Source of the DNA: Ensifer adhaerens
Lineage (GTDB): Bacteria; Pseudomonadota; Alphaproteobacteria; Rhizobiales; Rhizobiaceae
DNA length: 64,000 nt
Reading direction: 5' to 3'
Assembly: GCF_013283195.1 (NCBI RefSeq)
Contig: NZ_JABEKT010000002.1
Span: 124,001 to 188,000 of the forward strand
Shown: one piece after another, positions 9,005 to 37,015 of the stretch
Position numbering within the stretch: position 1 is the stretch's first letter
Layout of the letters: every line of letters starts with the position of its first letter
Notes under the pieces: model-generated
Database searches by the model: none
Told to the model about the DNA's origin: nothing
Seen by the model: only the letters and a program-made list of their open reading frames with translations
Translations under genes and position numbers: made by a program

Positions 9005-9943
9005 TCAGGAAGCCAGTTTCTCCCTGACCGAGGTCTTGCTTCGATAGTGGCTTGGCGGTGCTCCGATGATCTTGCGGAAGGCGCGGCTGAACGAAGCCTC
9101 GGAATCATAGCCGAGGCGGCCGGCGACAAGGGCCACCCTCTGCCCTTCCTGCAGCCATTGATGCGCCTGGTGCATTCGCATGCGCGCGACATAGCGCGCC
9201 GGTGTCTCGCCCATGATGTCGACGAAACGCTGAGCGAAACCCGATCGCGACGCCCCCATCAGCTTTGCCAATTCGGGCACACTCCAATCCCGTGTTGGCT
9301 CAAGGTGGATGGCGGCAAGCACACGACCGAGTTCCGGATTGCGCACAGCCGCCAGCCAGCCGGTCGCCGTGCCGCAGCCATGCTCCACCCAGGTTCGAAT
9401 GAGCGTTGCGGTCAGCACGTCGGCGAGCCGCGCCAGAATGCCGCCCGAACCGACGCGCTGCATCTCGGCTTCCCGCGTCATGGCGTCGAGAAGTGGCGGG
9501 ATCGACGGTTCGCTCGACGCAAGATCGCTGGTGCGCATGACGGCCGGCATCAGTTGCAGGAGTGGATGCAGCCGATCGACATTGAACTGCATCACCGCGT
9601 AGAAGATGAGGTTCTTGCTGTCCGTCGACGGGCATTGCACGTCGATGATGCCGTCACACAGCTGCCTTTTCGGCAGGTCGGCGATCGAGACCGGCGGAAT
9701 GCCCGGCTTGCTCGCCAGTACATGCGCATCGCCTCTGGGCAACAGAACCGCATCGCCTTGCGAGAGTTCGATCCATTCGCCATCCGGCGCACGAAGGTGG
9801 GCGGAGCCTGATGCGAGAAAGTGGAACCGCGCGGGCTCCTGCGCCGGATAGGCCGTCGCCCAGGGCGCGCAGGGTTGGCAACGCCCGTATTCAACACCGT
9901 CGAGCCGCAGCCCGCGCAAGATTTCGGTCAATGCATCGCTCAT
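9005..9943 (-). CDS. AraC-family regulator with cupin_6 domain
   Basis: This 312-residue protein starts at MSDALTEILRGLRLDG. The upstream in-frame extension is non-protein-like and was dropped. The N-terminal half matches the AraC_binding/cupin_6 sensor seen in regulators next to exporters or oxidoreductases (FHFLASGSAHLRAPDG, then LSQGDAVLLPRGDAHVL). The C-terminal half is an AraC DNA-binding domain with LAKLMGASRSGFAQRFVDIM and RLGYDSEASFSRAFRKIIG. It is transcribed divergently from the MFS gene at 10054 with a 110-nt gap, the usual arrangement for a regulator and its target. Confidence 0.92.
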   Translation of the reverse strand: MSDALTEILRGLRLDGVEYGRCQPCAPWATAYPAQEPARFHFLASGSAHLRAPDGEWIELSQGDAVLLPRGDAHVLASKPGIPPVSIADLPKRQLCDGIIDVQCPSTDSKNLIFYAVMQFNVDRLHPLLQLMPAVMRTSDLASSEPSIPPLLDAMTREAEMQRVGSGGILARLADVLTATLIRTWVEHGCGTATGWLAAVRNPELGRVLAAIHLEPTRDWSVPELAKLMGASRSGFAQRFVDIMGETPARYVARMRMHQAHQWLQEGQRVALVAGRLGYDSEASFSRAFRKIIGAPPSHYRSKTSVREKLAS

Positions 9944-9986
9944 GAACCCACCGGCAAGTTTGGAGAAACGGCACAGTCTTTTGGAT

Positions 9987-10001
9987 TTTCTAGCATAGAA
10001 A
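9987..10001. promoter_or_regulatory. Palindrome in the AraC/MFS divergent promoter region
   Basis: TTTCTA and TAGAAA are perfect inverted arms around GCA, midway between the two divergent starts. It could be an operator or part of overlapping promoters. AraC proteins usually bind direct repeats, so assignment to this regulator is tentative. Confidence 0.35.
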
Positions 10002-10053
10002 CTCCTGAAGATCCCACCTATTTTCGCCATCAACAATCGCGGAGATCGAGAAT

Positions 10054-11253
10054 ATGGATGGCTTGGTGACAAAATCAGCGGCCCCGACGGACGACCGGAG
10101 CCGCGCGCGGTGGGGCGCCGTGGTGTCCCTTTCGCTTGGCGTGTTTGGCCTGGTGACGGCAGAGTTTCTACCAGCAAGCCTGCTGACGCCGATGTCGGCG
10201 GATCTAGGGGTCAGCGTCGGGGCGGCCGGGCAATCGGTGACGACGACGGCCGTCGTCGCGGCGGTCGCCGGCCCGGCGATCGTCGTCTACACGGGACGGT
10301 TCGACCGGCGAACGGTTCTTCTGGCTCTGACCGGCCTGCTCGTCGTCTCGAGCCTGATGGCGGGTTTTGCGCCGAACCTTCCCTTTCTGCTTGCGGCCCG
10401 AGTGCTGCTCGGCGTCGCGCTCGGCGGTTTCTGGGCCATGTCGCTGGCGCTCGCCATGCGGCTTGTTCCCGGCAGACTGATGCCGCGGGCCATGGCGATC
10501 GTGATGTCGGGCGTGTCGATCGCCACAGTGTGCGCGGCACCCGTCGGCGCCTGGATCGGCGCCACGCTCGGCTGGCGCTATGCGTTCCTGCTTGCAGCCG
10601 CAGTCGGGGTGATCACCTTTATCGTCCAGGCGCTGACTGTTCCATCGTTGCCGCCCATCGGGACCACCGGCCTCGACACGATCGCAAGGGTCCTGAAGCG
10701 CCCGGCGATCCGGCTGGGCCTTGCCACGATCCTGCTGGTTGTCACCGGTCACTTTGCTGGCTTCACCTATATCCGCCCCTATCTCGAACAGGTTCCGCGT
10801 TTTGACGTCGAGATGATCACCGCGATCCTGCTCGCCTTCGGTATCGGCGGCTTCTTCGGCAATATCGCCGGAGGTTTTCTGGCGGAGCGCAACACCCGCC
10901 TGTCGATGATGCTGGCGGCGGCCGGTATCGCCGCCACGGCTCTGCTTCTCGCCGTCGCCGGCGTGCTGCCGGCCGTTGCCGCGGCAGCCACGGCAGCCTG
11001 GGGGTTCGCCTTCGGCGCTCTGCCCGTCAGCGTCCAGTCCTTCATCAGCCGGGCTGCCGGCGACGAGGCGGAAGGTGCGGGCGCTGCGACACTGACGACA
11101 TTCCAGATCGCCATCTCGACGGGAGCAATCCTCGGCGGCGTGATCGTCGAACTCCAGGGACCGGCCGGTGTGTTCCTCTTCGCCGCACTGGCTGCGCTGC
11201 TGGGCGCCTCGCTCGTGGCGGTCTCCCGCAAGGTGGCCCTCCAGCCGGGCTGA
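10054..11253 (+). CDS. MFS drug/metabolite exporter, DHA1 (NepI/AraJ-like) type
   Basis: A 399-residue protein with about twelve hydrophobic segments. It contains the DHA1 loop sequence GRFDRRTVLLALTG between helices 2 and 3 and the motif RVLLGVALGGFWAMSLALAM typical of sugar-efflux/nucleoside-efflux members such as NepI and YdhP. It would be an inner-membrane proton-driven exporter. It is divergent from the AraC/cupin_6 regulator. The substrate cannot be read from the sequence. The start ATG follows GGAGATCGAGAAT, a fair ribosome-binding site. Confidence 0.88.
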   Translation: MDGLVTKSAAPTDDRSRARWGAVVSLSLGVFGLVTAEFLPASLLTPMSADLGVSVGAAGQSVTTTAVVAAVAGPAIVVYTGRFDRRTVLLALTGLLVVSSLMAGFAPNLPFLLAARVLLGVALGGFWAMSLALAMRLVPGRLMPRAMAIVMSGVSIATVCAAPVGAWIGATLGWRYAFLLAAAVGVITFIVQALTVPSLPPIGTTGLDTIARVLKRPAIRLGLATILLVVTGHFAGFTYIRPYLEQVPRFDVEMITAILLAFGIGGFFGNIAGGFLAERNTRLSMMLAAAGIAATALLLAVAGVLPAVAAAATAAWGFAFGALPVSVQSFISRAAGDEAEGAGAATLTTFQIAISTGAILGGVIVELQGPAGVFLFAALAALLGASLVAVSRKVALQPG

Positions 11254-22994: not shown

Positions 22995-24209
22995 TTAACG
23001 GCCGGCATCCGTGATGGCAGCGACCGTCGCAGCGGAGAGCCCGACCTCCGCCAGCACCTCGGCCGTGTGCTCCCCGAGACCCGGCGCCGGCAGCCGGAAG
23101 CGCCCCGGCGTTTCGGACAGTCGCGGCACGATGTTGTGCATGGGCAGCGGCCCGTGCTCCGCATCGTCGAGCGATACGATCACCTCGCGCTCGGAAAAAT
23201 GCGCGTCCTCGGTCGCGTCGGCAATGTTGTAGATCGGTCCGACCGTTGCGCCGCTGTCTCGCATAACGGCGAGCGCCTCGTCGTGGGAACGAACAGCAAA
23301 CCAGGCACCGATCGCCTCATCGACCAGATCGCGATGCTTGAGGCGCTCGCTGTTGGAACGAAACCGCGGATCCTCGTTCATGTCGGCGCGGCCGATGATC
23401 TCGAAGATCCGTCGGGCGACGGCGGGCGTCGAGCCCGAGAGCGCGACGTACTTGCCGTCGGCGCATTGATAGACGTTGCGCGGGCAGGCGGTGTTCGAGG
23501 CGCTGCCGATGCGCTCCTTGACGGTGCCGTTGAGCGCATAGATCGCGGCCTCTGGGCCGAGAACCGAGAAGATCGGCTCCAGCAGCGACAGGTCGATGAC
23601 CTGTCCGCGTGCCCTGCCCTTTTCGCGCGCAAACAGCGCGGTCATCGTCGCCGACATGCCGTATACGCCGGCGATCATGTCGGCGAGCGCCAAGGGCGGC
23701 AGCACCGGCTCCCGGTCGGGAAAGCCGGTGCGGTAGGCGTAGCCGCTCATGCCTTCGACGATAGTGCCGAAGCCGGGAAATGCCGCATAGGGACCGGTCT
23801 GGCCGAAGCCGGACACGCGCACGACGACGAGATCGGGATTGCGTGCGAGAAGCACGTCCGGGCCGAAGCCCATCTGTTCCAGTGTTCCCGGGCGGAAATT
23901 CTCGATGAAAACGTCGGCGCTCGCGACCAGTGCCCAGAGTGCCTCGCGATCGGCCGTTTCCCTGAGGTTGAGGATCACCGAGCGCTTGTTGCGCCCATAG
24001 GTCTTCCAGAACAACGACAGGCCTTCGTCCTTCCACTCGCGCAGCGGGTCGCCCGCCGGCGGCTCGATCTTGATCACGTCGGCGCCGAAATCGGCAAGCT
24101 GCAGCGACAGCATGTTGCCGGCGACCAGACGCGAAAGGTCAAGCACCTTGATCCCCTGAAGCGGCCCTTCGGCATCAGGATCCCAGTGCTTTCTGACGAA
24201 ATCGTTCAT
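22995..24209 (-). CDS. Class III (CaiB/BaiF/Frc-type) CoA-transferase
   Basis: 404 residues. [46 protein letters not shown] and [12 protein letters not shown] are the hallmark blocks of family III CoA-transferases. The catalytic Asp is probably Asp177 in [12 protein letters not shown]. The enzyme moves CoA between two carboxylic acids through an aspartyl-CoA intermediate. It is the last gene of the LacI-led operon; its start overlaps the ATPase stop by four bases (ATGA), so translation is coupled. Its presence implies that the imported compound yields an organic acid that needs CoA activation. Donor and acceptor are unknown. Confidence 0.93.
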
Positions 24210-25261
24210 TGGAGGCGCCCGCCCGTCTTGTCGTCGAACAAAAGCACATTGGCCGTGTCGAAGCCGATTGTCACCTTCGCGCCCGACTGCAGAAGCGCGC
24301 TTTCGCCAAGAACCATTGTGATGTCGGTGGTCTCGACCCGAAGCATCACCTCCTGCGCATCCCCGGTCGGCTCGACCAGCACGACCTCGGCCGCGATGCC
24401 ACTGTCGGCAAGGTGGATGTGCTGCGGGCGGATGCCGTAAACGATCTTGCGCCCCGAAACGAGCCCGTGACCTGTGGGCAGCGGCAGCCGGGCGCCATCG
24501 GCAAGCCGCAGCATCTGGCCATCGACCTCGCCGCGCAAGAGGTTGATCTCAGGCGAGCCGATGAAGCTGGCGACGAACAGGTTCTGCGGGTTCTTGTAGA
24601 GCTCCAGCGGCGGCCCCATCTGCTCGATCTTGCCGCCGTTCAGAACCACGATCTTGTCGGCCATGGTCATGGCTTCCGTCTGGTCGTGGGTGACGTAGAT
24701 CGTCGTCTTGCCGAGGCGCTGATGCAGCTTCTTGATCTCGCCGCGCATCTTCACCCGAAGCTTTGCATCGAGGTTGGAAAGCGGCTCGTCGAAGAGGAAG
24801 GCGCGCGGGTCGCGCACGATGGCGCGCCCCATGGCCACACGCTGGCGCTGGCCGCCCGACAGTTCGCGCGGCAGCCGTTCGAGCAGGTGCCCGAGCCCGA
24901 GGATGTCGGCGGCCTCGTCGACGCGACGCTTGATCTCGCTCTTCGACACGCCGGCAAGTTTCAGCGCGAAGCTCATATTGTCGGCGACCTTCATGTGCGG
25001 ATAGAGCGCGTAGCTCTGGAACACCATGGCAAGGTCACGTTCCTTGGCCGGCATGTCGTTGACGATGCGGCCACCGATGGTGATCTCGCCGGCACTGATG
25101 TCCTCGAGCCCGGCGATCATGCGCAGCAAGGTCGACTTGCCGCAACCGGACGGACCGACCAGGACGACGAATTCGCCGCTGCCCATGTCGAGCGAAATAT
25201 CATCGAGCACCGACATGCTGCCGTAGCTCTTTCCCACATTCCTGAGTTCGATCTCGGACAT
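24206..25261 (-). CDS. Sugar-type ABC importer ATPase (MalK/UgpC-like)
   Basis: 351 residues from [24 protein letters not shown] precedes the ATG. Walker [11 protein letters not shown]-loop [11 protein letters not shown], signature [14 protein letters not shown], Walker [13 protein letters not shown] and the switch His in VTHDQTEAM are all intact. The C-terminal OB/TOBE domain ([21 protein letters not shown]) is of the carbohydrate class. It energises the two permeases at 30121 and 31017 of the same operon. Placement after the hydrolase genes rather than next to the permeases is unusual for Lpl-type systems, which often share an ATPase encoded elsewhere. Confidence 0.95.
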
Positions 25262-25349
25262 GGTCTCTCCTCCCATTTGATGCGCCGGTGCGGCTCTTGG
25301 CGCCGCCCGCCGGCCCGTTTCACAGGCCGGCGGGCGGGAACTAGACCGC

Positions 25350-27458
25350 TCAGGCAGTCTCGACGATCTCGATGGTTCCGACGCTCATGCGACCGAGCGC
25401 ACCCAGGCGAAGACCGGCCATGCCATAGACGAACTGGTCATCGCTCGCCTCGATCAGCGGCTTGCCGTCGATGGCGAAGGACAATGCATCACCCTTGAGG
25501 GTGAACGCGAAGCCGTAGCTCTTGCCAAGTTCGCGCTTGAACGGTGCGCGCGCCAGAACGGTGGTGCCGAAATCCTCCTTGAGGATGACCACCTCATCGC
25601 CGTCGAAGCCTGCGGCATAGAACCGGCTCGTGCCGTGAACACGCGCCGTCACCAGCTGCGACGGCCCGGCGAGCGGCTTGACATCCGCCAGCACCTCGAC
25701 GTCGCGGGCGTAGTAATGGCCCGTCCACAGATCGGCATCATTGGCCGTATGAGCGTGGATGCGGCCATCCTGCAGGGTCCAGTGACCACGGTTCCAGGTG
25801 AAGCGCGAAATCGAACCCCATTCCTGCACTTCGCCCCTGGGATCGATGACGGTGTGGCCAGCGCCCTCGACCTTGAAATCGGCGAGGAACAGGCGGCCGA
25901 GGAATTTCAGCCGGCCGAAATACTCGACCTGGATGCCGATCTCGTCGATCGCCTCGGCGCCTTCCGGCACGGTGAAGGAATAGTCCTGCCAACCCTCATG
26001 ATTGGGCACGTGCCACGCGCCGGTCTCCTCGATCGCGCCGGACATGGCGCGGCGGATATAGGGCGCGACGCGCAGGTTGCCGTCACCGTTCCACGGATCG
26101 AGCCATAGCTTGAACGACACCGTCTGGCCGGCATCGACCAGTGGCGAGAACATCGGGCGGTAGCGCTCGTCGTCGAAATCGGAGCGGCGATAGAAGGGCT
26201 TCCAGAAGATGCGTCCGCCCTGGCCACGCTCGAGCCGGTCGAGTTGGATTTCAAGCGAACCGCGCGAGCCTTCGGCCTGCTTTTCGGTCGAACCCTTGAG
26301 GCTGATCTGGTTGAAGCCTTCGGTGCGGAAACCGTGGGTCGATCCGGGCAGATCGAAGTCGAAGCGGACGCCACGGCGGGTGAAGTCTTCCAACCAGAGA
26401 GCCGGCACGTCGTCACCACGCAGTTGCAGCGCCAGCACCGTCAGTTCCCGGGCAAAGGACGGGATGTCGACGATATTGATCGAGCCGACGACTCCGGAGG
26501 CAACGATGAAGTCGTTGATCGGCTTTCTGTACTTGTCCCAACCCGGCTGAAGCCCCTGGAAGGTGCCGACGATGGCACCGGCATTGCCGGCGTTGCAGTC
26601 GGTGTCCCAGCCGGCCATGGTGGCGATCTCGGCAGTGCGCGGCAGGTCGCCTTCGCCATAGAGGATCGCCATGACGGTCACGCCGGCATTGGGGATGATG
26701 TGGCAGACTCCGGGATAACGGTCATAGCCCCAATCGGCAGTCAGCATGTCGCGGCAGGCGCGCCAGTTGCCGGGATTGGCCTTGTGGAAGTCGATCACCG
26801 CCTGCGCCACGCGGGCATAGGTGGATTTCGCGTCGATGGTCGCCATGGCGGCGGCGATCACCTCGGCGATCGAGGTCGCCTCGAAAGCCCCAGCGATGGC
26901 GGCGGCGCAGAAGCGCGCGCCGTTCAGGCCGTCGCCGTCATGAGCAACGCTTGCAGCGCGAGCCGAAGCGTCGGCTGCCTTCTGCGGCTCACCCGGATGC
27001 ACCCAGCCCCAGCTGTCGATGAAGATCTGCCCGCCGATCTGCTCGGCAACAGTCGCGCCGTTCTGAGCGATCGATCCGGATTGCGGCGCAGGAATGCCGG
27101 CACGCAGGTTGCGATAGGCGGTGTGTTCGGTCGATACGCCGAAGCCGCCCCACCAGTACATGCCGTGCTCTTCGGCAGCATAGTTCACCCAGGTCTTGCC
27201 GACATCGGCAGCACTCGCCTTCAGACCGTAGTCGCGCAGAGCGCGAATGAAGTAGACCGGGCCGTTGGTGTCGTCGTCAGCGGCGAAATTCTTGAAGTCC
27301 CGCAGATACTGGGTGACTTCGCCATAGGTCTTCTGGACGCGCTCATAGCTCCAGATCGTCGGTTCGACCGGGGCGCCCAGGCGAACGCCAATGGCCTTGC
27401 CGATGAAACCGGCATAGATCTTCTCGTAAATCGTCTCTTTGCTGAGCTTGGGCATCAT
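25350..27458 (-). CDS. ADP-ribosylglycohydrolase-fold protein with C-terminal carbohydrate-binding-like domains
   Basis: 702 residues, no signal peptide, so cytoplasmic. Residues ~1-360 are a DraG/ARH-type all-helical fold: [17 protein letters not shown], the first metal site in [11 protein letters not shown] and the second in [18 protein letters not shown]. Canonical members have T/S where this one has Cys after DTD. Residues ~380-530 look like a galactose-binding-type beta sandwich ([33 protein letters not shown]). Residues ~545-700 look like a ConA/LamG- or DUF1080-like sandwich ([31 protein letters not shown]). The extra domains suggest the substrate is a larger glycoside. It may hydrolyse a ribosyl or related glycosidic bond; macromolecular ADP-ribose removal cannot be excluded. 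Confidence 0.88.
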
Positions 27459-27475
27459 GCGTCTTTCGTTATCGA

Positions 27476-28660
27476 TCAGAATGTGAGGGCGGCGCGGAAG
27501 CTGGCCCGCCGGTCGGCGGCCGCCTGGTCGGCGGCAAGCATGGTCGTTGCCACTTCGGTGAAGCGATCGGCCGAAGCGCTGAGGTCGAGCCGGTTCGCCC
27601 GGTCGAGGAGGGCATGGTCGGCGTCGTCGATGACACCTTCGCCATGCATCGCGCCGAGGATCGCACCGGCCATGACGCCGATGGAGTCAGTATCGCGACC
27701 GGAATTGATGCCGTCCTCGATCGAGCGGCGGAAGTCGCCGTCGTTGAACAGGCAGAAACCGAGCGCCAGCGGCAGCTCTTCGATCGAGCCGAGGCGGCTC
27801 GGCTGATAGGCAGCCGTCAGACGACCTGCCTTGGCGGGTGTGTGGTTGACGTCGTCGCCCATGGGAGAATAGGGCGCGATCGCCGCATGGAAGGCGGCAA
27901 CGACCGTCTGATGATCAGCACCTTGCACCTTGAGCTTGCGGGCAACGTCTGCGATGTCGGCAATGGCGTTGCGCGTCCCGTCCTTGGCCAATGCCAGAAC
28001 GGCTTCGATCACGCCTTCGATATCAGTTCCCGGAACGAACGCCGCGGCAACCGCAGCGGCAAACACGCCCGCCGCCTCAAGCCCGAAACTCTCCTGGTGG
28101 CCGGAGGCAAACGCGATCGCCTCGTCATAGGCGGCCCTCGGATCGCAGGCGTTGACGACGCCGATTGGCGCGACATACATCGCGGCACCACAATTGACCA
28201 TGTTGCCGATGCCGCCCTGGCGCGGATCGCACGATGTCAGCTGGTGGCGCTGGAAGATCCATTTCTCCGGATAGAAAAGGCGCTCGATCAGCATCGCTTC
28301 GCGCTGCAGTTCCGGCACGTAGCGCGGCACCCAGGCGATCTGCCTGACCATACCGTCGGCCATGTCCCAGGCATCGAGATGCCGGCCGACGTCACCATAG
28401 ATATCCATGAGGCAGAGCGTCATCAGCGTGTCGTCGGTGACGATGCCGTTGCCGCGCACCCGGCCGTTGCGGGCGGTAGCGTCAAGCGACATCTTGTGCC
28501 ACTCGGTGTCCAGCGAGCTGACCCGGCCATATCGCTTAGCGATTTCGGCGGCCGGCAGTTTTTCGACCGGCGCCCCCATGGCGTCGCCAAGCGCGACGCC
28601 ATGGATGAGCGCGCGGACTCTCCCTTTGAGAGAGAGCCCTTGAACGCTACTTTTGTGCAT
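27476..28660 (-). CDS. ADP-ribosylglycohydrolase-family protein (canonical metal motifs)
   Basis: 394 residues from MHKSSVQGLSLKGRVRALI. The family motifs are complete: GVALGDAMGAPVEK, the first Mg site VTDDTLMTLCLMDIY and the second site GRDTDSIGVMAGAILGA. It is cytoplasmic. The start at 28660 overlaps the 3' end of the binding-protein gene by 14 nt and uses AAGGA inside that gene; ATG at 28678 is the alternative. Family members cleave the N- or O-glycosidic bond of ADP-ribose adducts, and some act on small ribosides. Here it sits between an importer gene and a second, divergent paralogue, which argues for small-molecule catabolism rather than protein repair. Confidence 0.92.
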   Translation of the reverse strand: MHKSSVQGLSLKGRVRALIHGVALGDAMGAPVEKLPAAEIAKRYGRVSSLDTEWHKMSLDATARNGRVRGNGIVTDDTLMTLCLMDIYGDVGRHLDAWDMADGMVRQIAWVPRYVPELQREAMLIERLFYPEKWIFQRHQLTSCDPRQGGIGNMVNCGAAMYVAPIGVVNACDPRAAYDEAIAFASGHQESFGLEAAGVFAAAVAAAFVPGTDIEGVIEAVLALAKDGTRNAIADIADVARKLKVQGADHQTVVAAFHAAIAPYSPMGDDVNHTPAKAGRLTAAYQPSRLGSIEELPLALGFCLFNDGDFRRSIEDGINSGRDTDSIGVMAGAILGAMHGEGVIDDADHALLDRANRLDLSASADRFTEVATTMLAADQAAADRRASFRAALTF

Positions 28661-30071
28661 CGAGAACAGTCCTTGCATACTCGTTGAGGCGTTTGCCACC
28701 GGCCGCTTCCCACTCCGCGACGTACTGATCCCACTGATCCATCTTGGCGGCGCCGGAGATGAACTTGTAGACCCAGGAGCGGTAGACGTTTTCGGTGGCG
28801 TCGAGATCGGCGGCGTAATCGGCCGGCCAGACAAAGGTATTGTCCGGCTTGAAGTCCTTCTGGATCGTCGCCAGCGACTGCTGGGCCGCTTCCGACTGCC
28901 AGACAACGGGCGGGGTCCAGTTGGCCGCCACCATGAAGCGGGCATACCAGGTGGCGATCTTGTCGGTGACCTTATAGGCGTCGCCGTCCTTGGTGTATTC
29001 CTGGCCTTCGAAGCCGAGGCGGTCGAACATCTGGCCTTCTGGGCTTGCCATGAAGTCCAGCAGCTTCATCACTTCGGCCTTGTGTTCCGACACCGACGAG
29101 ATCGCAAATCCGCGCGATTCCTTGGAGACGTCGACGGCGGCGAGACCCTGGCCGCCCGGTCCCTTCGGCGGCGACAGGAGCACGAGCTCGGTGCCCGGAT
29201 GCACCTGACGCATCTTGCCGCCATAGATGTCGATGACCTCGCCGGAGGAGCCGAAGATCACGCCGGCGCGGCCGGTGTAGAACTTGTCTTCCTTCACGTC
29301 GAACTTGGTGGTGATGTATTCGGGATCGTAGAGGCCCTGTTCGCGCAGCGATGCGTAGAAGGCGATCTTGTCCTTCTCCTGCGTGGTGGTGCGCGCATGC
29401 ACCCATTCGCCGCCCGCGTTCTTCATCCAGGTGCCGGTGATGCCGAATGCCTGGTTGAAGATGGAATCGAGCTCGTTAGTGTTATCGGCCGTGGTCACGC
29501 CATAGCTGTCGGCGACACCGTTGCCGTCGAGATCGCCGTCCTTGATCGCCTTGAACAGGGTGACATAGTCTTCGACGGTTTCAGGCGCCTTGAGGCCGGT
29601 CTTTTCCAGCCAGTCCTTGCGGATCACCGGCTGGGGCCCGCGCACCGGATAGACATAGAGAAGGTAGGGGTAGTTCTTGAGGCGCTCGACATTGTGCGGC
29701 CACAGCGCGTCCTTCAGGTACTTGGTGTCGGCCAGCATCGGGCCGAGATCCTCGAGCACGCCCTGCTCGACCATCTTGGCGTCGCCGCCTTGGAAATAGA
29801 TCAGGTCCGGAATATCGCCCGACAGCAGCATCACCGACAGCTTGTCGGCATAGCCTGAAGACGGCAGGTCGACGAGTTCGATGTCCAGATCGGTGCCCTG
29901 CGCCCGGAGCGCTTCCTCAATGCGCTTGAGGTGCTTGACGTCGTCGGGGTTGGACGGGGTGAAGTCCTTGGACACCACCCGGATCTTGACCGGTTCGGCC
30001 AATGTCGGGGCGGCAGCACCGAGGCTGAGTGCTAGCGCAGTCGATGCCAGCAGGACCATTTTTCTAAGCAT
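28647..30071 (-). CDS. ABC solute-binding protein, family 1 (LplA/YtcQ-like)
   Basis: 474 residues. The signal peptide MLRKMVLLASTALALSLGAA ends near TLAEP, so the protein is periplasmic. The body is the large two-lobed family-1 fold with PDLIYFQGGDAKMVEQGVLE, the calcium-loop-like DGDLDGNGVADSYGVTTADN and the C-terminal block near VAEWEAAGGKRLNEY. Lpl-type binding proteins handle oligosaccharides or glycosides. The ribosome-binding site GGAGGAGACGAA precedes the ATG. It is the recognition component for the two permeases upstream in the operon. Confidence 0.93.
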   Translation of the reverse strand: MLRKMVLLASTALALSLGAAAPTLAEPVKIRVVSKDFTPSNPDDVKHLKRIEEALRAQGTDLDIELVDLPSSGYADKLSVMLLSGDIPDLIYFQGGDAKMVEQGVLEDLGPMLADTKYLKDALWPHNVERLKNYPYLLYVYPVRGPQPVIRKDWLEKTGLKAPETVEDYVTLFKAIKDGDLDGNGVADSYGVTTADNTNELDSIFNQAFGITGTWMKNAGGEWVHARTTTQEKDKIAFYASLREQGLYDPEYITTKFDVKEDKFYTGRAGVIFGSSGEVIDIYGGKMRQVHPGTELVLLSPPKGPGGQGLAAVDVSKESRGFAISSVSEHKAEVMKLLDFMASPEGQMFDRLGFEGQEYTKDGDAYKVTDKIATWYARFMVAANWTPPVVWQSEAAQQSLATIQKDFKPDNTFVWPADYAADLDATENVYRSWVYKFISGAAKMDQWDQYVAEWEAAGGKRLNEYARTVLDAQK

Positions 30072-30120
30072 TTCGTCTCCTCCGTTTAGATAGGCTTCTT
30101 TGTTTGAACGCGTGTCTTCG

Positions 30121-31017
30121 TCACCCCTTGAGCGCGCCGCTCATGGTTCCCTTGGTGAAGAATTTCAGGATCAGCGGGTAGATCGCCAGGATCGGCACGA
30201 TGGTGAGCAGGATCATGCCGGCTTTCAGCGATCTCAGATCGATCTGGCTGGCGCCGGTGTTGTTGCTGGCGTTGTTGGCGCCAACGATCGCGACCTTGTC
30301 GCCATCGATGACGAACTGGCGCAGCACCACCTGCAACGGCCATTTGCCCTGATCGTTCAGATAGATCATCGCGCGGAAGAACTCGTTCCAGTGAAAGACG
30401 AGATAGAACAGCGAGATGGTGGCGAGCGCCGGCTTGGCGAGCGGCAGCACCAGATGCCAGAACACCTGGAACGGGTTGGCGCCATCCAGTTCGGCAGCCT
30501 CCAGCAGTTCCTGCGGGATCTCCTCGAAGAAACGGATGAGGATGATCAGATACCAGGCATTGACCGCCTTGAAGAGGATCACCGACCAGTAGCTGTCGAG
30601 GAGGCCCAGGCGCTTGTTGACGAAATAGTCGGGAATGATGCCCGGCTCGAACACGATGGTGACGAGCACGAGGATAAACAGCGCCTTGCGACCCGGCAGG
30701 CCGGGCCTTGAAAGCCCCCAGGCCATCAGCGCGGTACCGACCACGCCGATCACGGTGCTGACAGCGGTGATGAAGATCGAGTTGAAGATGCCGCGCTGCA
30801 CATTGGGGTGCTGCAGCAGAACACTCCAGACCTCGAAGGAGAACCCTCGAGGGATGATGGTCAGCCCGCTCATGCCCGGCACCTTTGCCGGGTTCGACAG
30901 CGAGACGGCGAGCAGGTTGAGGATCGGCTGGACGGTGACGACGACGAGCAGCAGCAGCGTCGAGACGATGATCGCATATTCGATGCGTTCGATCGGGGTC
31001 TTGCGCGACAGGGCCAT
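30121..31017 (-). CDS. ABC importer permease, LplC/YtcP type
   Basis: 298 residues with six hydrophobic helices. The EAA coupling loop reads IPQELLEAAELDGANPFQVF, and WHLVLPLAKPALATISLFYL follows. The terminal FFTKGTMSGALKG is the signature end of CUT1 Lpl-type permeases. Its ATG overlaps the TAA of the preceding permease by one base (TAATG), which couples translation. It forms the channel with the gene at 31017. Confidence 0.95.
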   Translation of the reverse strand: MALSRKTPIERIEYAIIVSTLLLLVVVTVQPILNLLAVSLSNPAKVPGMSGLTIIPRGFSFEVWSVLLQHPNVQRGIFNSIFITAVSTVIGVVGTALMAWGLSRPGLPGRKALFILVLVTIVFEPGIIPDYFVNKRLGLLDSYWSVILFKAVNAWYLIILIRFFEEIPQELLEAAELDGANPFQVFWHLVLPLAKPALATISLFYLVFHWNEFFRAMIYLNDQGKWPLQVVLRQFVIDGDKVAIVGANNASNNTGASQIDLRSLKAGMILLTIVPILAIYPLILKFFTKGTMSGALKG

Positions 31018-31994
31018 TACCAGACTCCCTTTCCGGTCAGACGCTTGGAAACGAAATGGGCGATCACGATCATCATCGTGCCGAGCACGGCCTTGAAGAG
31101 GCCTGCGGCCGTTGCCAGCGAGTATTCGCCGGTCTGCAGCCCGATGCGGTAGACATAGGTGTCGACGATATCGATCTTGCTGCGCACCACGTCGTTAGAG
31201 AGGTTGATCACCTGATTGAGGTCGGCGTTGAGGAACATGCCGGCATTGAGGATGAACAGCGTCGCGATCGTCGGTACGATGCCGGGCAGCGTGACGTGGC
31301 GGATCTTCTGCCAGCGGTTGGCGCCGTCGATCTCGGCGGCATCATAAAGCTGCTGGTCGATGGCGATGATGGCGGCGAGATAAAGCAGGCTGTCCCAACC
31401 GGCCGAACGCCAGATCTCGGTGAACACCAGCACCCAGCGGATGGCGCCGGTATCGGTCATGAACGAACGCGGCGCGATGCCGGCCATGCCCATGATATTG
31501 TTGACGGCGCCATCGGTCGGCGACAGCGCTGCGATGAAGATGCCGGCGATCACCACCCAGGACAGGAAGTGAGGCAGATAGATCGCCGACTGGATGAACT
31601 TGCGCAGCGAACCGCCGCGAACCTCGTTCAAAAGTAGCGCGACGATGATCGGCACCGGTAGGAAGAACACCATCTTCATGGCCGAGATGATCAAGGTGTT
31701 GGCCAGCACCTGCCAGAACACCGGCGAGGAGAACAGCACCTGGAAATGCTTGATGCCGACCCAGATGTTGGGTGGCACGATGCGGACCTGTTCGAAGGCA
31801 ATGCGCGCCTCCCAGATCGGCAGGTAATGGAAGATGAGGAAGAACAGGATGCCCGGCGCCATCATGACGTAATAGGGCCACCACCGGCGCCAGCCATCGG
31901 CAGCGACCGCAACGCGCCCCTGCCTGCGGCGCGCGCTCGATTTGGGAACGTTCCCAAATTTAGGCGACATCACCGCCTCGTCACGATTGGTCAT
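31017..31994 (-). CDS. ABC importer permease, LplB/YteP type
   Basis: 325 residues with six hydrophobic helices, starting MTNRDEAVMSPKFGNVPKSS. The coupling loop is LYDAAEIDGANRWQKIRHVT, followed by LPGIVPTIATLFILNAGMFL. The start at 31994 is supported by a GGAGGGGG site overlapping the lacI stop, only three bases upstream. Codons 12-19 are a perfect DNA palindrome (see 31940-31959). The protein therefore has an odd polar N-terminal tail before the first helix. Confidence 0.93.
   Translation of the reverse strand: MTNRDEAVMSPKFGNVPKSSARRRQGRVAVAADGWRRWWPYYVMMAPGILFFLIFHYLPIWEARIAFEQVRIVPPNIWVGIKHFQVLFSSPVFWQVLANTLIISAMKMVFFLPVPIIVALLLNEVRGGSLRKFIQSAIYLPHFLSWVVIAGIFIAALSPTDGAVNNIMGMAGIAPRSFMTDTGAIRWVLVFTEIWRSAGWDSLLYLAAIIAIDQQLYDAAEIDGANRWQKIRHVTLPGIVPTIATLFILNAGMFLNADLNQVINLSNDVVRSKIDIVDTYVYRIGLQTGEYSLATAAGLFKAVLGTMMIVIAHFVSKRLTGKGVW
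31940..31959. promoter_or_regulatory. LacI-type operator inside the permease coding start
   Basis: ATTTGGGAAC is followed directly by its reverse complement GTTCCCAAAT, a perfect 20-bp palindrome with the central CG typical of LacI/GalR operators. It lies 36-55 nt into the first permease gene and 39 nt beyond the lacI stop. It shares the core GGGAACGTT with the site at 33072. A repressor bound here could block read-through from lacI or control an internal promoter. Confidence 0.75.
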
Positions 31995-31997
31995 TGC

Positions 31998-33044
31998 TTA
32001 CCCCCTCCCGGAGCTTGCTGCGCGTCTGGGCTGGTTGAGCGACAGATCGGCCAATGAGCCGCGCTCGATCAGCCGGCATGGCATGAACACCCGCCCATGC
32101 TCCGGGCGGCCGGCGATTTCATCAAACAGGCAATCGACGGCGCGCACGCCGATCTCGCGCCCAGGCTTGGCGACCGTCGTCAGTCCCGGCCAGGAAAATG
32201 CGCCTGCGGGAATGCCGTCGAAGCCGAGGATGGAGACGTCTTCCGGGCAACGCAGACCGGCTTCGCGCACGGCGACCATGGCGCCGAGCGCCATCAGATC
32301 GTTGGCCGCGAAAACCGCGAGATGGCCGACCCGGTCGCGTGCAAGCAGCCGCATCATCGCGGTTCGCCCGCCTTCGACGGTATATTCGCCATCTTCCATC
32401 GGCAGTGCTGCCGGGTCGATGTCGCGCTCGACGCAATGTTCATGAAAAGTGCGCAGAAACCGGGCCCGCGCGATACGCGATTTCGGCCCGAGGATCAGCG
32501 CCGGCGCGTGATGCCCCTTGGACACCAGATGGTCCATGCCGAGCCTGACCGCCTGGGCAATATCGGAACCGACGGAAGAATTGGCCGGAAAACGTTCAGC
32601 ACTCGAACCGATCAGCACGAAGGGCAGCCCGAACCTGTCGAGATCGTCGAAGCTGTCGGCAACCGGATTGATGATGGCGCCATCGACCCGCGCCTGCCGC
32701 AGGGCACGCAGATGGCTCGCCTCGCGGCCATGATCCCAATCGGAGGAAAACACCAGGAGCGAAGTGCCGTTTTCGGCCGCGCGGTCCTGCGCACCGCGCG
32801 CCACCTCGGCCCAGAACGGATTGGTGATATCAGGAATGACAAGGCCGAGCAGACCTGTGCGGCCGGAGCGCATGCCGACGGCCAGATCGTTGCGCTCATA
32901 GCCGACGGCACGGGCGGCCTCGAGCACACGCTCGCGCGCCTCGTCCGTAACATTGGACGCGCCGGAGAGTGCCCGGCCGGCGGTGCTCTTCGACACCCCC
33001 GCCTTTCGCGCGACGTCAATGATCGTCGGCCGCCTCCGCTGCAT
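31998..33044 (-). CDS. LacI/GalR-family transcriptional regulator
   Basis: 348 residues from MQRRRPTIIDVARKAGVSKS; GGGAGGG precedes the ATG at 33044. The helix-turn-helix and hinge (VSKSTAGRALSGASNVTDEA, YERNDLAVGM) are canonical. The periplasmic-binding-like core follows (GLLGLVIPDITNPFWAEVAR, VFAANDLMALGAM, ILGFDGIPAGAFSWPGLTTV). It is the first gene of the operon, three bases from the permease gene. It probably represses the operon and itself through the two palindromes at 33072 and 31940 until a sugar-like inducer binds. Confidence 0.94.
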   Translation of the reverse strand: MQRRRPTIIDVARKAGVSKSTAGRALSGASNVTDEARERVLEAARAVGYERNDLAVGMRSGRTGLLGLVIPDITNPFWAEVARGAQDRAAENGTSLLVFSSDWDHGREASHLRALRQARVDGAIINPVADSFDDLDRFGLPFVLIGSSAERFPANSSVGSDIAQAVRLGMDHLVSKGHHAPALILGPKSRIARARFLRTFHEHCVERDIDPAALPMEDGEYTVEGGRTAMMRLLARDRVGHLAVFAANDLMALGAMVAVREAGLRCPEDVSILGFDGIPAGAFSWPGLTTVAKPGREIGVRAVDCLFDEIAGRPEHGRVFMPCRLIERGSLADLSLNQPRRAASSGRG

Positions 33045-33071: not shown

Positions 33072-33089
33072 CGTGGGAACGTTACCACG
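33072..33089. promoter_or_regulatory. LacI-type operator upstream of lacI
   Basis: CGTGGGAAC and GTTACCACG are inverted arms around a central CG with one mismatch. The core GGGAACGTT is shared with the perfect palindrome at 31940. It lies 28-45 nt upstream of the lacI ATG, so autoregulation is likely. Confidence 0.75.
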
Positions 33090-34634: not shown

Positions 34635-35732
34635 ATGATCCAGACCCCCTACTATCTGATCGACAAGGCGAAGCTCCTTCGCAACATGGAGAAGATCGCC
34701 TATGTGCGCGAAAAATCCGGCGCCAAGGCGCTGCTCGCGCTCAAATGCTTCGCCACATGGTCGGTCTTCGATCTGATGCGCGAATACATGGATGGTACGA
34801 CGTCCTCCTCACTCTACGAGGTGCGGCTCGGCCGCGAAAAATTCGGCGGCGAAACCCATGCCTATAGCGTCGCCTATGGCGACAATGAAATTGACGAGGT
34901 GATCGGCCATGCCGACAAGATCATCTTCAACTCGATCGGCCAGCTCGACCGCTTCGCCGACAAGGCGTCCGGCATTGCCCGCGGGCTGCGCCTCAATCCG
35001 GGCATGAGCTCATCCAGCTTCGACCTCGCCGACCCCGCCCGCCCCTTCAGCCGGCTCGGCGAATGGGATGCGGCGCGGATCGAGACCGTAATGGACCGCA
35101 TCAGCGGCTTCATGATCCACAACAACTGCGAGAACAGGGATTTCGGCCTGTTCGACCGGATGCTGGGCGAGATCGAGGAAAGGTTCGGCGGACTGCTTTC
35201 CCGCGCCGACTGGGTCAGTCTCGGTGGCGGCATTCATTTTACCGGCGACGACTATCCGGTCGACGCCTTCTGCGAGCGCTTGAAGGCCTTTTCCGGCCGT
35301 CACGGCGTCCAGGTCTATCTGGAGCCCGGCGAAGCAGCGATCACCCGCAGCACGACGCTTGAGACCACCGTCCTCGACACGCTCAACAACGGCAAGGACC
35401 TCGCCATCGTCGACAGCTCGATCGAGGCGCACATGCTCGACCTCCTGATCTACCGCGAAAGCGCCAAGGTCGAGCCGAATGCCGGACCGCACAGCATCAT
35501 GGTCTGCGGCAAATCGTGCCTTGCCGGCGATATCTTCGGCGAGTTCCGCTTTCCAGAGCCCCTGAAAGTCGGAGACCGCGTCTCGTTCCAGGATGCGGCC
35601 GGCTACACCATGGTCAAGAAGAACTGGTTCAACGGCGTCGGCATGCCGTCGATCGCCGTCAGAGAGCTTGACGGCAGCGTCAGGCTCGTCCGCGAATTTT
35701 CATTCGCCGACTACGAACAGAGCCTCTCCTAA
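34635..35732 (+). CDS. nspC: Carboxynorspermidine/carboxyspermidine decarboxylase
   Basis: 365 residues, fold-type III PLP enzyme related to diaminopimelate decarboxylase. The PLP lysine is Lys37 in ALLALKCFATW. Other family marks are IHNNCENRDFGLF, LGGGIHFTGDDYPVD, LEPGEAAITRSTTL and the active-site Cys in VCGKSCLAGD. It decarboxylates carboxyspermidine (or carboxynorspermidine) to the triamine in the alternative polyamine pathway used by many Rhizobiales. The partner reductase gene follows 41 nt downstream. Confidence 0.96.
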   Translation: MIQTPYYLIDKAKLLRNMEKIAYVREKSGAKALLALKCFATWSVFDLMREYMDGTTSSSLYEVRLGREKFGGETHAYSVAYGDNEIDEVIGHADKIIFNSIGQLDRFADKASGIARGLRLNPGMSSSSFDLADPARPFSRLGEWDAARIETVMDRISGFMIHNNCENRDFGLFDRMLGEIEERFGGLLSRADWVSLGGGIHFTGDDYPVDAFCERLKAFSGRHGVQVYLEPGEAAITRSTTLETTVLDTLNNGKDLAIVDSSIEAHMLDLLIYRESAKVEPNAGPHSIMVCGKSCLAGDIFGEFRFPEPLKVGDRVSFQDAAGYTMVKKNWFNGVGMPSIAVRELDGSVRLVREFSFADYEQSLS

Positions 35733-35773
35733 GGCTCGTCATACCCCCATAAAAGAAGGAAAAATCACCCGAA

Positions 35774-37015
35774 ATGAAGAAGAACGTTCTCATCATCGGC
35801 GCCGGTGGCGTGGCTCAGGTCGTGGCGCATAAGTGCGCGCAGAACTGCGATGTACTGGGAGACATCCATATCGCATCCAGAACGGTCGAAAAGTGCCGCG
35901 CGATCGTCGCCTCGGTCCGCGAAAAGAAGAGCCTGAAGACCGACGTGACACTCGAAGCCCATGCGCTTGATGCCATGGATGTCGAGGCAACGAAGGCGCT
36001 GATCGAAAAGACCCGGGCCGGCATCGTCATCAATGTCGGCTCCGCCTTCGTCAACATGTCGGTGCTGCGCGCCTGCATGGATACCGGTGCTGCCTATATG
36101 GACACCGCGATCCACGAAGACCCGAAGAAGATCTGCGAAACGCCGCCGTGGTACGGAAACTACGAATGGCAGCGTGCGCAGGAGTGCAAGGAAAAAGGCA
36201 TCACCGCCATCCTCGGCGTCGGCTTCGACCCGGGCGTGGTCAACGCCTATGCACGCCTCGCCAAGGATGAGTATTTCGACAAGGTCACCGCCGTCGATAT
36301 CGTCGATATCAATGCCGGCAGCCATGGCAAATACTTCGCCACCAACTTCGACCCCGAGATCAACTTCCGCGAATTCACCGGCGTCGTCTATTCCTGGCAG
36401 AACGGCCAGTGGCAGACCAATTCGATGTTCGAGGTCGGCAAGGAATATGACCTGCCGGTGGTCGGCAAGTGCAAGGCCTACATGACCGGCCACGACGAGG
36501 TTCATTCGCTGGCAAAGCACATGGACGGCGCCGACGTCCGCTTTTGGATGGGTTTTGGCGATCACTACATCAACGTCTTCACCGTCCTGAAAAACCTCGG
36601 CCTCCTGTCCGAGCAGCCGGTGAAAACTGCCGAAGGCCTCGAGGTCGTGCCGCTCAAGGTGGTCAAGGCCGTGCTGCCGGATCCGTCGTCGCTGGCACCG
36701 AACTACCAGGGCAAGACCTGCATCGGCGATTTCGTGAAGGGATTGAAGGACGGCGAGGAACGCGAAGTCTTCATCTACAACGTGGCCGATCATAAGGAAG
36801 CCTTCGAAGAAGTCGGATCGCAGGGCATCTCCTACACCGCCGGCGTACCGCCGGTCGCTGCCGCCATGCTGATTGCATCGGGCGAATGGGACGTGAAGCA
36901 GATGGTCAACGTCGAGGAACTGCCGCCGCGCCCGTTCCTCGACATCCTCAACCGGATCGGACTTCCCACCCGCATCAAGGATGCGGACGGCGACCGCGCC
37001 TTGACGTTCTCCTGA
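35774..37015 (+). CDS. Carboxynorspermidine/carboxyspermidine synthase (saccharopine dehydrogenase-like)
   Basis: 413 residues. The NADPH fold opens with NVLIIGAGGVAQVVAHKCAQ, and the saccharopine-dehydrogenase-like core shows GVGFDPGVVNAYARLAKDE and ISYTAGVPPVAAAMLIASGE. It condenses putrescine or diaminopropane with aspartate semialdehyde and reduces the imine to carboxyspermidine or carboxynorspermidine, the substrate of NspC. It is in an operon with nspC and ends at the hairpin near 37077. Often called CASDH or Lys1-like. Confidence 0.95.
   Translation: MKKNVLIIGAGGVAQVVAHKCAQNCDVLGDIHIASRTVEKCRAIVASVREKKSLKTDVTLEAHALDAMDVEATKALIEKTRAGIVINVGSAFVNMSVLRACMDTGAAYMDTAIHEDPKKICETPPWYGNYEWQRAQECKEKGITAILGVGFDPGVVNAYARLAKDEYFDKVTAVDIVDINAGSHGKYFATNFDPEINFREFTGVVYSWQNGQWQTNSMFEVGKEYDLPVVGKCKAYMTGHDEVHSLAKHMDGADVRFWMGFGDHYINVFTVLKNLGLLSEQPVKTAEGLEVVPLKVVKAVLPDPSSLAPNYQGKTCIGDFVKGLKDGEEREVFIYNVADHKEAFEEVGSQGISYTAGVPPVAAAMLIASGEWDVKQMVNVEELPPRPFLDILNRIGLPTRIKDADGDRALTFS

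Follow-up and report, generated by a model that had tools for sequence, protein, structure and literature searches.

Proteins with the ADP-ribosylglycohydrolase (ARH) fold are mostly known, and annotated, as enzymes that reverse the ADP-ribosylation of protein or DNA. The sole related operon that we recognised in the ARH literature, among the matches listed and judging from titles and the starts of abstracts, is yegTUV of Escherichia coli, which encodes the major facilitator superfamily (MFS) transporter YegT, the ARH-fold protein YegU and the sugar-kinase-like protein YegV; the paper ties the operon to ADP-glucose, and its enzymes have no assigned function (PMC10819704). An ARH family gene is also present in a Prevotella hemin-uptake locus, which is a different context (PMC10434189), and itaconate degradation includes a coenzyme A (CoA)-transferase, a hydratase and a citramalyl-CoA lyase (PMC12290011). 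Here we analyse an operon of Ensifer adhaerens in which an ATP-binding cassette (ABC) importer is encoded together with two ARH-fold proteins and a class III CoA-transferase. It lies on the minus strand of the window, the whole 64,000-nucleotide stretch that was analysed (positions 124001-188000 of contig NZ_JABEKT010000002.1 in a 7.07-Mb genome). With moderate confidence, we interpret it as an operon that is repressed by LacI and serves the catabolism of a small glycoside of acidic character, acting through the steps proposed below.

Operon layout and recurrence among relatives

The eight-gene operon is real, and the minus-strand gene order given by the original prediction (lacI, two permeases, binding protein, two PF03747 proteins, ATPase, CoA-transferase) is confirmed. 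The genes and two operators are:

31998..33044, minus strand: lacI, LacI-family regulator (PF00356, PF13377)
31017..31994, minus strand: permA, ABC permease (PF00528, BPD_transp_1)
30121..31017, minus strand: permB, ABC permease (PF00528, BPD_transp_1)
28647..30071, minus strand: solute-binding protein (SBP; PF01547, SBP_bac_1) with a hydrophobic, signal-peptide-like N-terminus
27476..28660, minus strand: ARH1, ARH-fold protein of 394 aa (PF03747)
25350..27458, minus strand: ARH2, ARH-fold domain (PF03747) plus two beta-sandwich regions, the last one CBM66-like, 702 aa
24206..25276, minus strand: importer ATPase, UgpC/MalK-type (PF00005; PRK11650)
22995..24209, minus strand: class III CoA-transferase (PF02515)
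33074..33087, no strand: operator O1, 14-base palindrome upstream of lacI
31943..31956, no strand: operator O2, palindrome of perfect symmetry within permA, 38 nt past the permA start

Stop/start overlaps, earlier said to pack all of these genes, occur at three of the seven junctions only (permA-permB, 1 nt; SBP-ARH1, 14 nt; ATPase-CoA-transferase, 4 nt), and the other four are gaps of 3, 49, 17 and 73 nt. The lacI open frame extends back to 33245; the start at 33044 adopted earlier is still the better choice, as the protein from there begins just ahead of the helix-turn-helix. The ATPase exceeds the PRK11650/UgpC cut-off (479 vs 432 bits).

A scan of genome contigs with ARH2 as the query confirmed 154 loci, and the analysis was performed on the best 80 of these 154: 68 taken as alphaproteobacterial by record title (one of these from a Planctomycetota-labelled bin), together with 10 from Clostridia and 2 from spirochaetes. 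A locus was evaluable for a gene if it had enough sequence on that side or if the gene was present, presence being counted by tblastn. Among evaluable loci of the 68, LacI was found in 55/55, PermA in 57/57, PermB in 58/58, SBP in 61/61, ARH1 in 67/67, the ATPase in 54/64, the CoA-transferase in 61/62 and a CitE-like lyase in 54/60. The gene order recurs in records from Ensifer, Aminobacter, Devosia, Pelagibacterium and Rhodobacteraceae. Homologous operons do not commonly lack the hydrolases or the CoA-transferase, a finding that would have told against the pathway of the original prediction; L027 and L105 are the exceptions seen.

Since ARH2 itself had been the query, a hydrolase-independent search was run with the SBP. 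Some match was present in 129 of 397 genomes of the order, eight of them strong (51-100% identity, E below 1e-150) and the next at 28% identity. All eight strong orthologues lie inside the ARH operon, seven of them with CitE. Together, the recurrent order, the SBP query and the locus counts rule out a chance assembly of the operon. A family sample of 199 genomes contained an ARH2-like match in 20: seven at 52-100% identity, five of which adjoin a CoA-transferase and two (G175, G040) do not; nine at 34-42%, belonging to a sister operon; and four distant ones at 27-29%. The sister loci (L106-L114) carry a LacI-like regulator, an ATPase match in 8/9 and the ARH2-like protein of 34-42% identity, L108 stopping at a contig end, and their gene content reads as a use of the ARH fold in sugar uptake without an acid module.

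Exchange of acid-processing genes and the proposed pathway

The CoA-transferase belongs to PF02515 (388 bits) and contains Asp177, conserved in 11/11 aligned sequences, which we take to be the catalytic Asp as in formyl-CoA transferase. It scores under all substrate equivalog cut-offs (succinate-glutarate, oxalate, mesaconate, others; best 250 vs 750), as do the CoA-transferases of three relatives. The usual last gene in relatives, following the CoA-transferase, encodes a CitE-like acyl-CoA lyase (PF03328). This gene is missing in L023, L024, L025, L062 and L069, which form the clade of the window, and in L027. A decayed CitE in the window was considered and rejected, as the best tblastn match had an E of 0.27 over 26 residues only and no remnant was present.

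The position of CitE was judged by coordinates in 16 genomes of the genus, all with ARH2. In nine, CitE adjoins the operon CoA-transferase; in the seven of the window clade it does not, and each of these has one CitE match (E <= 1e-50) elsewhere, 82-100% identical to that of the window genome. Such a copy in trans was found in 7/7 genomes lacking the in-operon gene vs 2/9 having it (79% identity), with a Fisher p of 0.003 in a test that ignores relatedness. The paralogue of the window genome is on the same contig as the operon, about 204 kb away. In six genomes the trans CitE adjoins a second CoA-transferase, 72% identical to that of the window; a second CoA-transferase (E <= 1e-100) was not found in the window genome (G000), G1131 or G1141, and the CoA-transferase/CitE pair is therefore split there between the ARH operon and elsewhere.

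Of the six second-pair genomes, the cluster was read in G1140 alone. Positions 7584-16325 of L198 encode there an IclR protein, SBP, permease, ATPase, the CoA-transferase of 72% identity and CitE, along with an RraA-type protein and a 2-hydroxyacid dehydrogenase; judged from gene content, this cluster fits a citrate- or citramalate-like acid without naming it and is perhaps a free-acid version of the operon's acid module. In the window genome (L120, C12:343001-362500), trans CitE at 9327-10175 lies beside an IclR protein, an NMT1-type ABC transporter and a protein that we take to be GlcG-like. Nearby genes for a RuBisCO-like protein, an IF-2B (MtnA-like) and an APH (MtnK-like) protein look like methylthioribose salvage.

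Clostridial loci encode the same kind of importer with ARH2 and a distinct ARH protein, ARH1'. Here the CoA-transferase gives way to another means of activating and splitting a citrate-like acid: CitD, CitE and CitF adjoin ARH1' in five of ten loci (L089, L091, L092, L096, L099), or five of the seven with enough sequence, L090, L097 and L100 being too short for this count. Both CitF proteins scanned exceed the citrate-lyase alpha equivalog (563.8 and 579.1 vs 501.45), and CitD of L096 matches PF06857 at 103.1 bits, with homologues in L089, L091, L092 and L099. The sole clostridial CitE scanned is under its cut-off (296.6 vs 443.4), and clostridial CitE proteins are 28-33% identical to the alphaproteobacterial query. 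Both spirochaete loci encode LacI, an AtuA-like protein, DUF4387, permeases, SBP, ARH2 and ARH1'; DUF4387 also lies at the end of L167, a contig of the same order as L099. The system is rare in these groups, since the clostridial SBP was found in only 2/345 genomes of one order and ARH2 in only 3/198 genomes of the phylum of the spirochaete locus. When 41 genomes were searched for the DUF4387 family, the single match was in G202, where an AtuA-DUF4387 pair (L189, 629-12198) stands beside a different ABC transporter, a thiolase-like protein and two matches to CoA-transferase, a hint that AtuA/DUF4387 may handle an acid processed through CoA esters. No literature on DUF4387 was found in an open-access search.

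As judged by sequence comparison, importer and hydrolases stay constant while the acid enzymes are exchanged, and this is the main ground on which we read the imported compound as a sugar joined to a hydroxy-polycarboxylic acid. A ribokinase-like gene directly follows ARH2 in six of ten clostridial loci (L088, L092, L096, L097, L098, L099) and lies between ATPase and CoA-transferase in L084; TIGR02152 is the best kinase model for all three such proteins scanned. These genes bear on a different origin of the acid, in which housekeeping enzymes would oxidise the sugar released by the ARH proteins, and the CoA-transferase and CitE-like lyase would then cleave the resulting sugar acid. The operons of most relatives have no other sugar-degrading enzyme, and L068 and L073 carry a GFO/IDH-AKR fusion gene just downstream, as this would predict. 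However, the kinase genes suggest that the sugar is phosphorylated, and CitDEF, which acts on citrate and citramalate, is not known for sugar acids, and we consider a sugar-derived acid quite improbable.

For the glycoside of a hydroxy acid, we infer substrate, bond and order of steps as follows. The AlgQ-like SBP, two permeases and ATPase would import a hydroxy di- or tricarboxylic acid, similar to citrate, citramalate or malate, in linkage with a sugar that is probably a furanose and may be ribose. Once this compound is in the cytoplasm, one or more glycosidic bonds would be cut by ARH1 and by ARH2, which carries the CBM66-like module, through the metal-dependent hydrolysis of the ARH family. 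The freed sugar would be phosphorylated, in some relatives by the ribokinase-like enzyme of the operon; no ribokinase-like gene is present in the window, and the rest of the window genome was not searched for one. The CoA-transferase would form a CoA ester of the acid, which a CitE-like lyase would split into an acyl-CoA and an oxo acid, this last step probably being supplied in the window genome by the distant trans CitE paralogue. Import, glycosidic cleavage and CoA activation of an acid, as originally predicted, remain the best reading; both the CitE-like lyase and the clostridial CitD, CitE and CitF next to the same importer and hydrolases strengthen the acid step. The original interpretation is partly supported: comparative evidence favours its general pathway, and its nucleoside-like substrate is not supported.

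Hydrolases, binding protein and repressor

The two ARH proteins score 163.2 and 138.8 bits against PF03747 (cut-off 26.2), and no other protein of the window genome matches this family at E <= 0.001. Among named records, those nearest to ARH2 (97-98% identity) are from Sinorhizobium sp. A49, Ensifer oleiphilus and a 'Rhizobiales bacterium'. The ARH1 model has a mean predicted local distance difference test (pLDDT) score of 82.1 with 48 residues under 50, and the ARH2 model one of 79.2 with 58 such residues; because these include possible pocket-shaping loops, no claim on substrate is drawn from the models. Foldseek matched ARH1 to MJ1187, DraG and ARH3 (best E 4.6e-07), at the family level and not closely, given query-normalised template-modelling (TM) scores of 0.47-0.60 with large root-mean-square deviation (rmsd) among the matches listed. 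The ARH domain of ARH2 resembles ARH3 in fold comparison (6g1q_A, TMt 0.68), and sequence identity is low, 14-21%, in the ARH-type fold matches listed.

Seven positions of ARH2 (Glu32, Asp61-63, Asp285, Thr286, Asp287) are invariant in 15/15 aligned sequences, as are Asp76, Asp77, Thr78, Asp323 and Asp325 in 15/15 of the ARH1/ARH1' alignment, where Glu33 and Thr324 are kept in 8/15, solely the alphaproteobacterial ones. We take these positions to be the metal-binding site of the family, and both proteins retain its acidic residues. By a simple measure, the hydropathy maximum of the N-terminus is 1.34 and 1.47 for the two hydrolases vs 2.19 for the SBP, and these less hydrophobic N-termini are consistent with a cytoplasmic location.

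The DraG- and ARH3-type fold and the metal-site residues are what would be expected if the two proteins were ADP-ribosylhydrolases that regulate the importer or operon enzymes or reverse ADP-ribosylation, with the sugar genes as mere neighbours. Yet ARH1 is far under the protein ADP-ribosylhydrolase equivalog cut-offs (DraG 46.6 vs 337.05, Tri1 19.6 vs 490), and ARH2 has no NCBIfam match at all and carries the CBM66-like domain. The strict linkage to the importer across three phyla and the lack of an ADP-ribosyltransferase among the operon and flanking genes scanned also argue against such a role, which we regard as very unlikely.

Both additional regions of ARH2 resemble carbohydrate-binding modules. 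The middle beta-sandwich matches CBM22-type modules weakly (4xuo_A, TMt 0.65, rmsd 4.4), and for the C-terminal domain both profile (E 2.9e-10) and fold (4b1m_C, TMt 0.82, rmsd 1.9) point to the CBM66 module found in levanase of Bacillus subtilis. CBM66 is a fructan-binding type of module that recognises fructofuranose ends. The nearest solved relatives of the SBP are AlgQ1 and AlgQ2 (AlgQ1 E 4.8e-21, sequence similarity), along with 5gub/5xs8-type proteins, which take glycosaminoglycan disaccharides. These binding proteins and the modules on ARH2 would suit an ordinary acidic oligosaccharide of the unsaturated uronate type known from AlgQ relatives, with the ARH proteins cutting a furanosyl link and the CoA-transferase and CitE handling an acid that decorates the sugar, for example in ester linkage. 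Against this, genes for a polysaccharide lyase, a uronate pathway or an esterase were not seen among the annotated conserved neighbours, and the CoA-transferase and CitE accompany the hydrolases as strictly as the importer does; we hold an oligosaccharide substrate to be unlikely.

Regulation by LacI was examined through the two palindromes. O1 is 29 bases upstream of the lacI start and O2 is perfectly symmetrical. In 54 usable lacI-upstream regions of the 68 alphaproteobacterial loci, the operator pattern occurred 31 times exactly, 18 times with one mismatch, four times with two and once with three, and among 3000 shuffles of one such region four reached one mismatch, 26 two or better and 302 three or better. 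At 55 usable permA starts, the pattern was exact in 29, with one mismatch in 21 and two in five; this second count has no separate shuffle control. In both spirochaete loci, too, lacI is preceded by an exact copy. Of five whole genomes, that of the window has the exact pattern at three places; it occurs at two places about 1.13-1.17 kb apart in G1140, G071 and G1131, and at one in G395; a backwards control pattern was found once each in G1140 and G1131 and not in the other three of these five genomes. The third match in the window genome (C1:1084378) was rejected as a regulon member, since it sits inside the coding sequence of an unrelated gene. A self-regulated LacI operon with two operators is likely, and DNA may loop between O1 and O2.

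RbsR and CytR are the best-scoring models for the LacI protein, both below cut-off. Such scores, with the ribokinase-like kinase of some relatives, would agree with the import and cleavage of the riboside of a heterocyclic acid, for which the original prediction had named nicotinic acid riboside. This idea is not supported, because a CitE-like or CitDEF acyl-CoA lyase of the citrate/citramalate type has no evident role on a nucleoside-like or other heterocyclic acid; in addition, the nearest solved SBPs are of the oligosaccharide type, and we judge a heterocyclic riboside very unlikely. The ribosyl link as such gains indirect support from the kinase and the CBM66-like domain, ribose itself not being established.

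The proposed catabolism of a furanoside of a citrate-like acid has to be set against several findings that count against it. In L027 (G175) and L105 (G040), importer and both hydrolases are present with no CoA-transferase or CitE match, and the nine sister loci combine an importer and one ARH2-like protein with no ARH1 or CoA-transferase match. The CitE-like proteins scanned are under the cut-offs of citE and RipC, their best NCBIfam models, so the identity of the acid is not established. As the Fisher test ignores relatedness, a single event within one clade may account for the trans-CitE pattern. Clostridial and spirochaetal ARH1' has 22-23% identity to ARH1 and is hence a different subfamily, two of the seven evaluable clostridial loci (L088 and L098, with at least 2.5 kb past ARH1') have no CitDEF match, and seven clostridial lacI-upstream regions lack the operator, none being better than four mismatches. 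The three ribokinase-like proteins score 248.8, 226.1 and 234.4 against the ribokinase equivalog cut-off of 299.65, which is why ribose cannot be assigned. Finally, a loosely aimed literature search gave no riboside of a citrate-like acid among the matches listed.

More tentatively, and as something possible rather than probable, bacteria from at least three phyla may share a pathway for a new class of natural compounds, citrate-like hydroxy acids that carry a furanosyl and probably a ribosyl group. In such a pathway ARH-fold proteins would be catabolic glycosidases, one of them with a fructan-type module, and three acid modules (CoA-transferase with CitE, CitDEF, AtuA with DUF4387) would be interchangeable.

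Flanking genes and other observations were as follows. At 34635-37015 of the window, on the strand opposite to the operon, an Orn/DAP/Arg decarboxylase-type protein and a saccharopine-dehydrogenase-like protein are encoded, presumably carboxynorspermidine decarboxylase and synthase. A second ARH2-like sequence (40%) lies directly behind ARH2 in an Inquilinus limosus bin (L077:4660-6823), and distant ARH proteins (26-27%) in L115-L117 are near an opposite-strand ribokinase-like gene. FGE-sulfatase-domain proteins occur near the operon in Alphaproteobacteria, in L068, L074, L082, L083 and L157 (641-662 aa where measured), and clostridial L096:474-1169 encodes one of 231 aa.

Comparison with known systems

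Among the matches listed in searches of the open-access literature, no paper describing this gene set was recognised, and the literature on ARH proteins in catabolic operons likewise gave nothing on it. If the two proteins are catabolic glycosidases, this would be a new job for the ADP-ribosylglycohydrolase family. A conserved uptake operon with two ARH proteins, one of them fused to a carbohydrate-binding-type module, would open catabolic glycosidase activity of the fold to direct testing and lead to corrected annotations. It further suggests that soil rhizobia, Devosia, Clostridia and spirochaetes make use of an acid-sugar compound, and the SBP and the two-operator repressor are handles for finding it.

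The operon resembles E. coli yegTUV in placing an ARH-fold gene with a transporter and a sugar kinase, and in a dedicated repressor with two sites, one of them in yegT; it differs in that yegTUV has an MFS transporter rather than an ABC importer, a GntR-family rather than a LacI-family regulator and no CoA-transferase or lyase (PMC10819704). With the itaconate cluster it shares a CoA-transferase teamed with a CitE/RipC-type lyase (PMC12290011). The itaconate cluster, however, has no glycosidase or sugar importer, whereas the ARH operon has no hydratase and its CitE-like proteins are under the RipC cut-off. In five clostridial loci, this kind of importer and the hydrolases have the citrate/citramalate lyase CitDEF next to them, but CitDEF is absent from the window, which has the class III CoA-transferase and relies on a distant CitE paralogue in our reading.

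The operon shares with AlgQ/Lpl-type ABC importers an SBP whose nearest relatives of solved structure are AlgQ1/AlgQ2, as well as two permeases with an ATPase of UgpC type; unlike in those systems, no alginate or rhamnogalacturonan genes are seen in it. The ADP-ribosylhydrolases DraG, ARH1, ARH3 and MJ1187 share the PF03747 fold and the acidic metal-site residues with the two hydrolases, which are set apart by their catabolic gene context, low identity, lack of an equivalog match and, in ARH2, the extra beta-sandwich domains. What is new relative to these systems is the combination of ARH-fold proteins as apparent catabolic glycosidases with an interchangeable module for a citrate-like acid.

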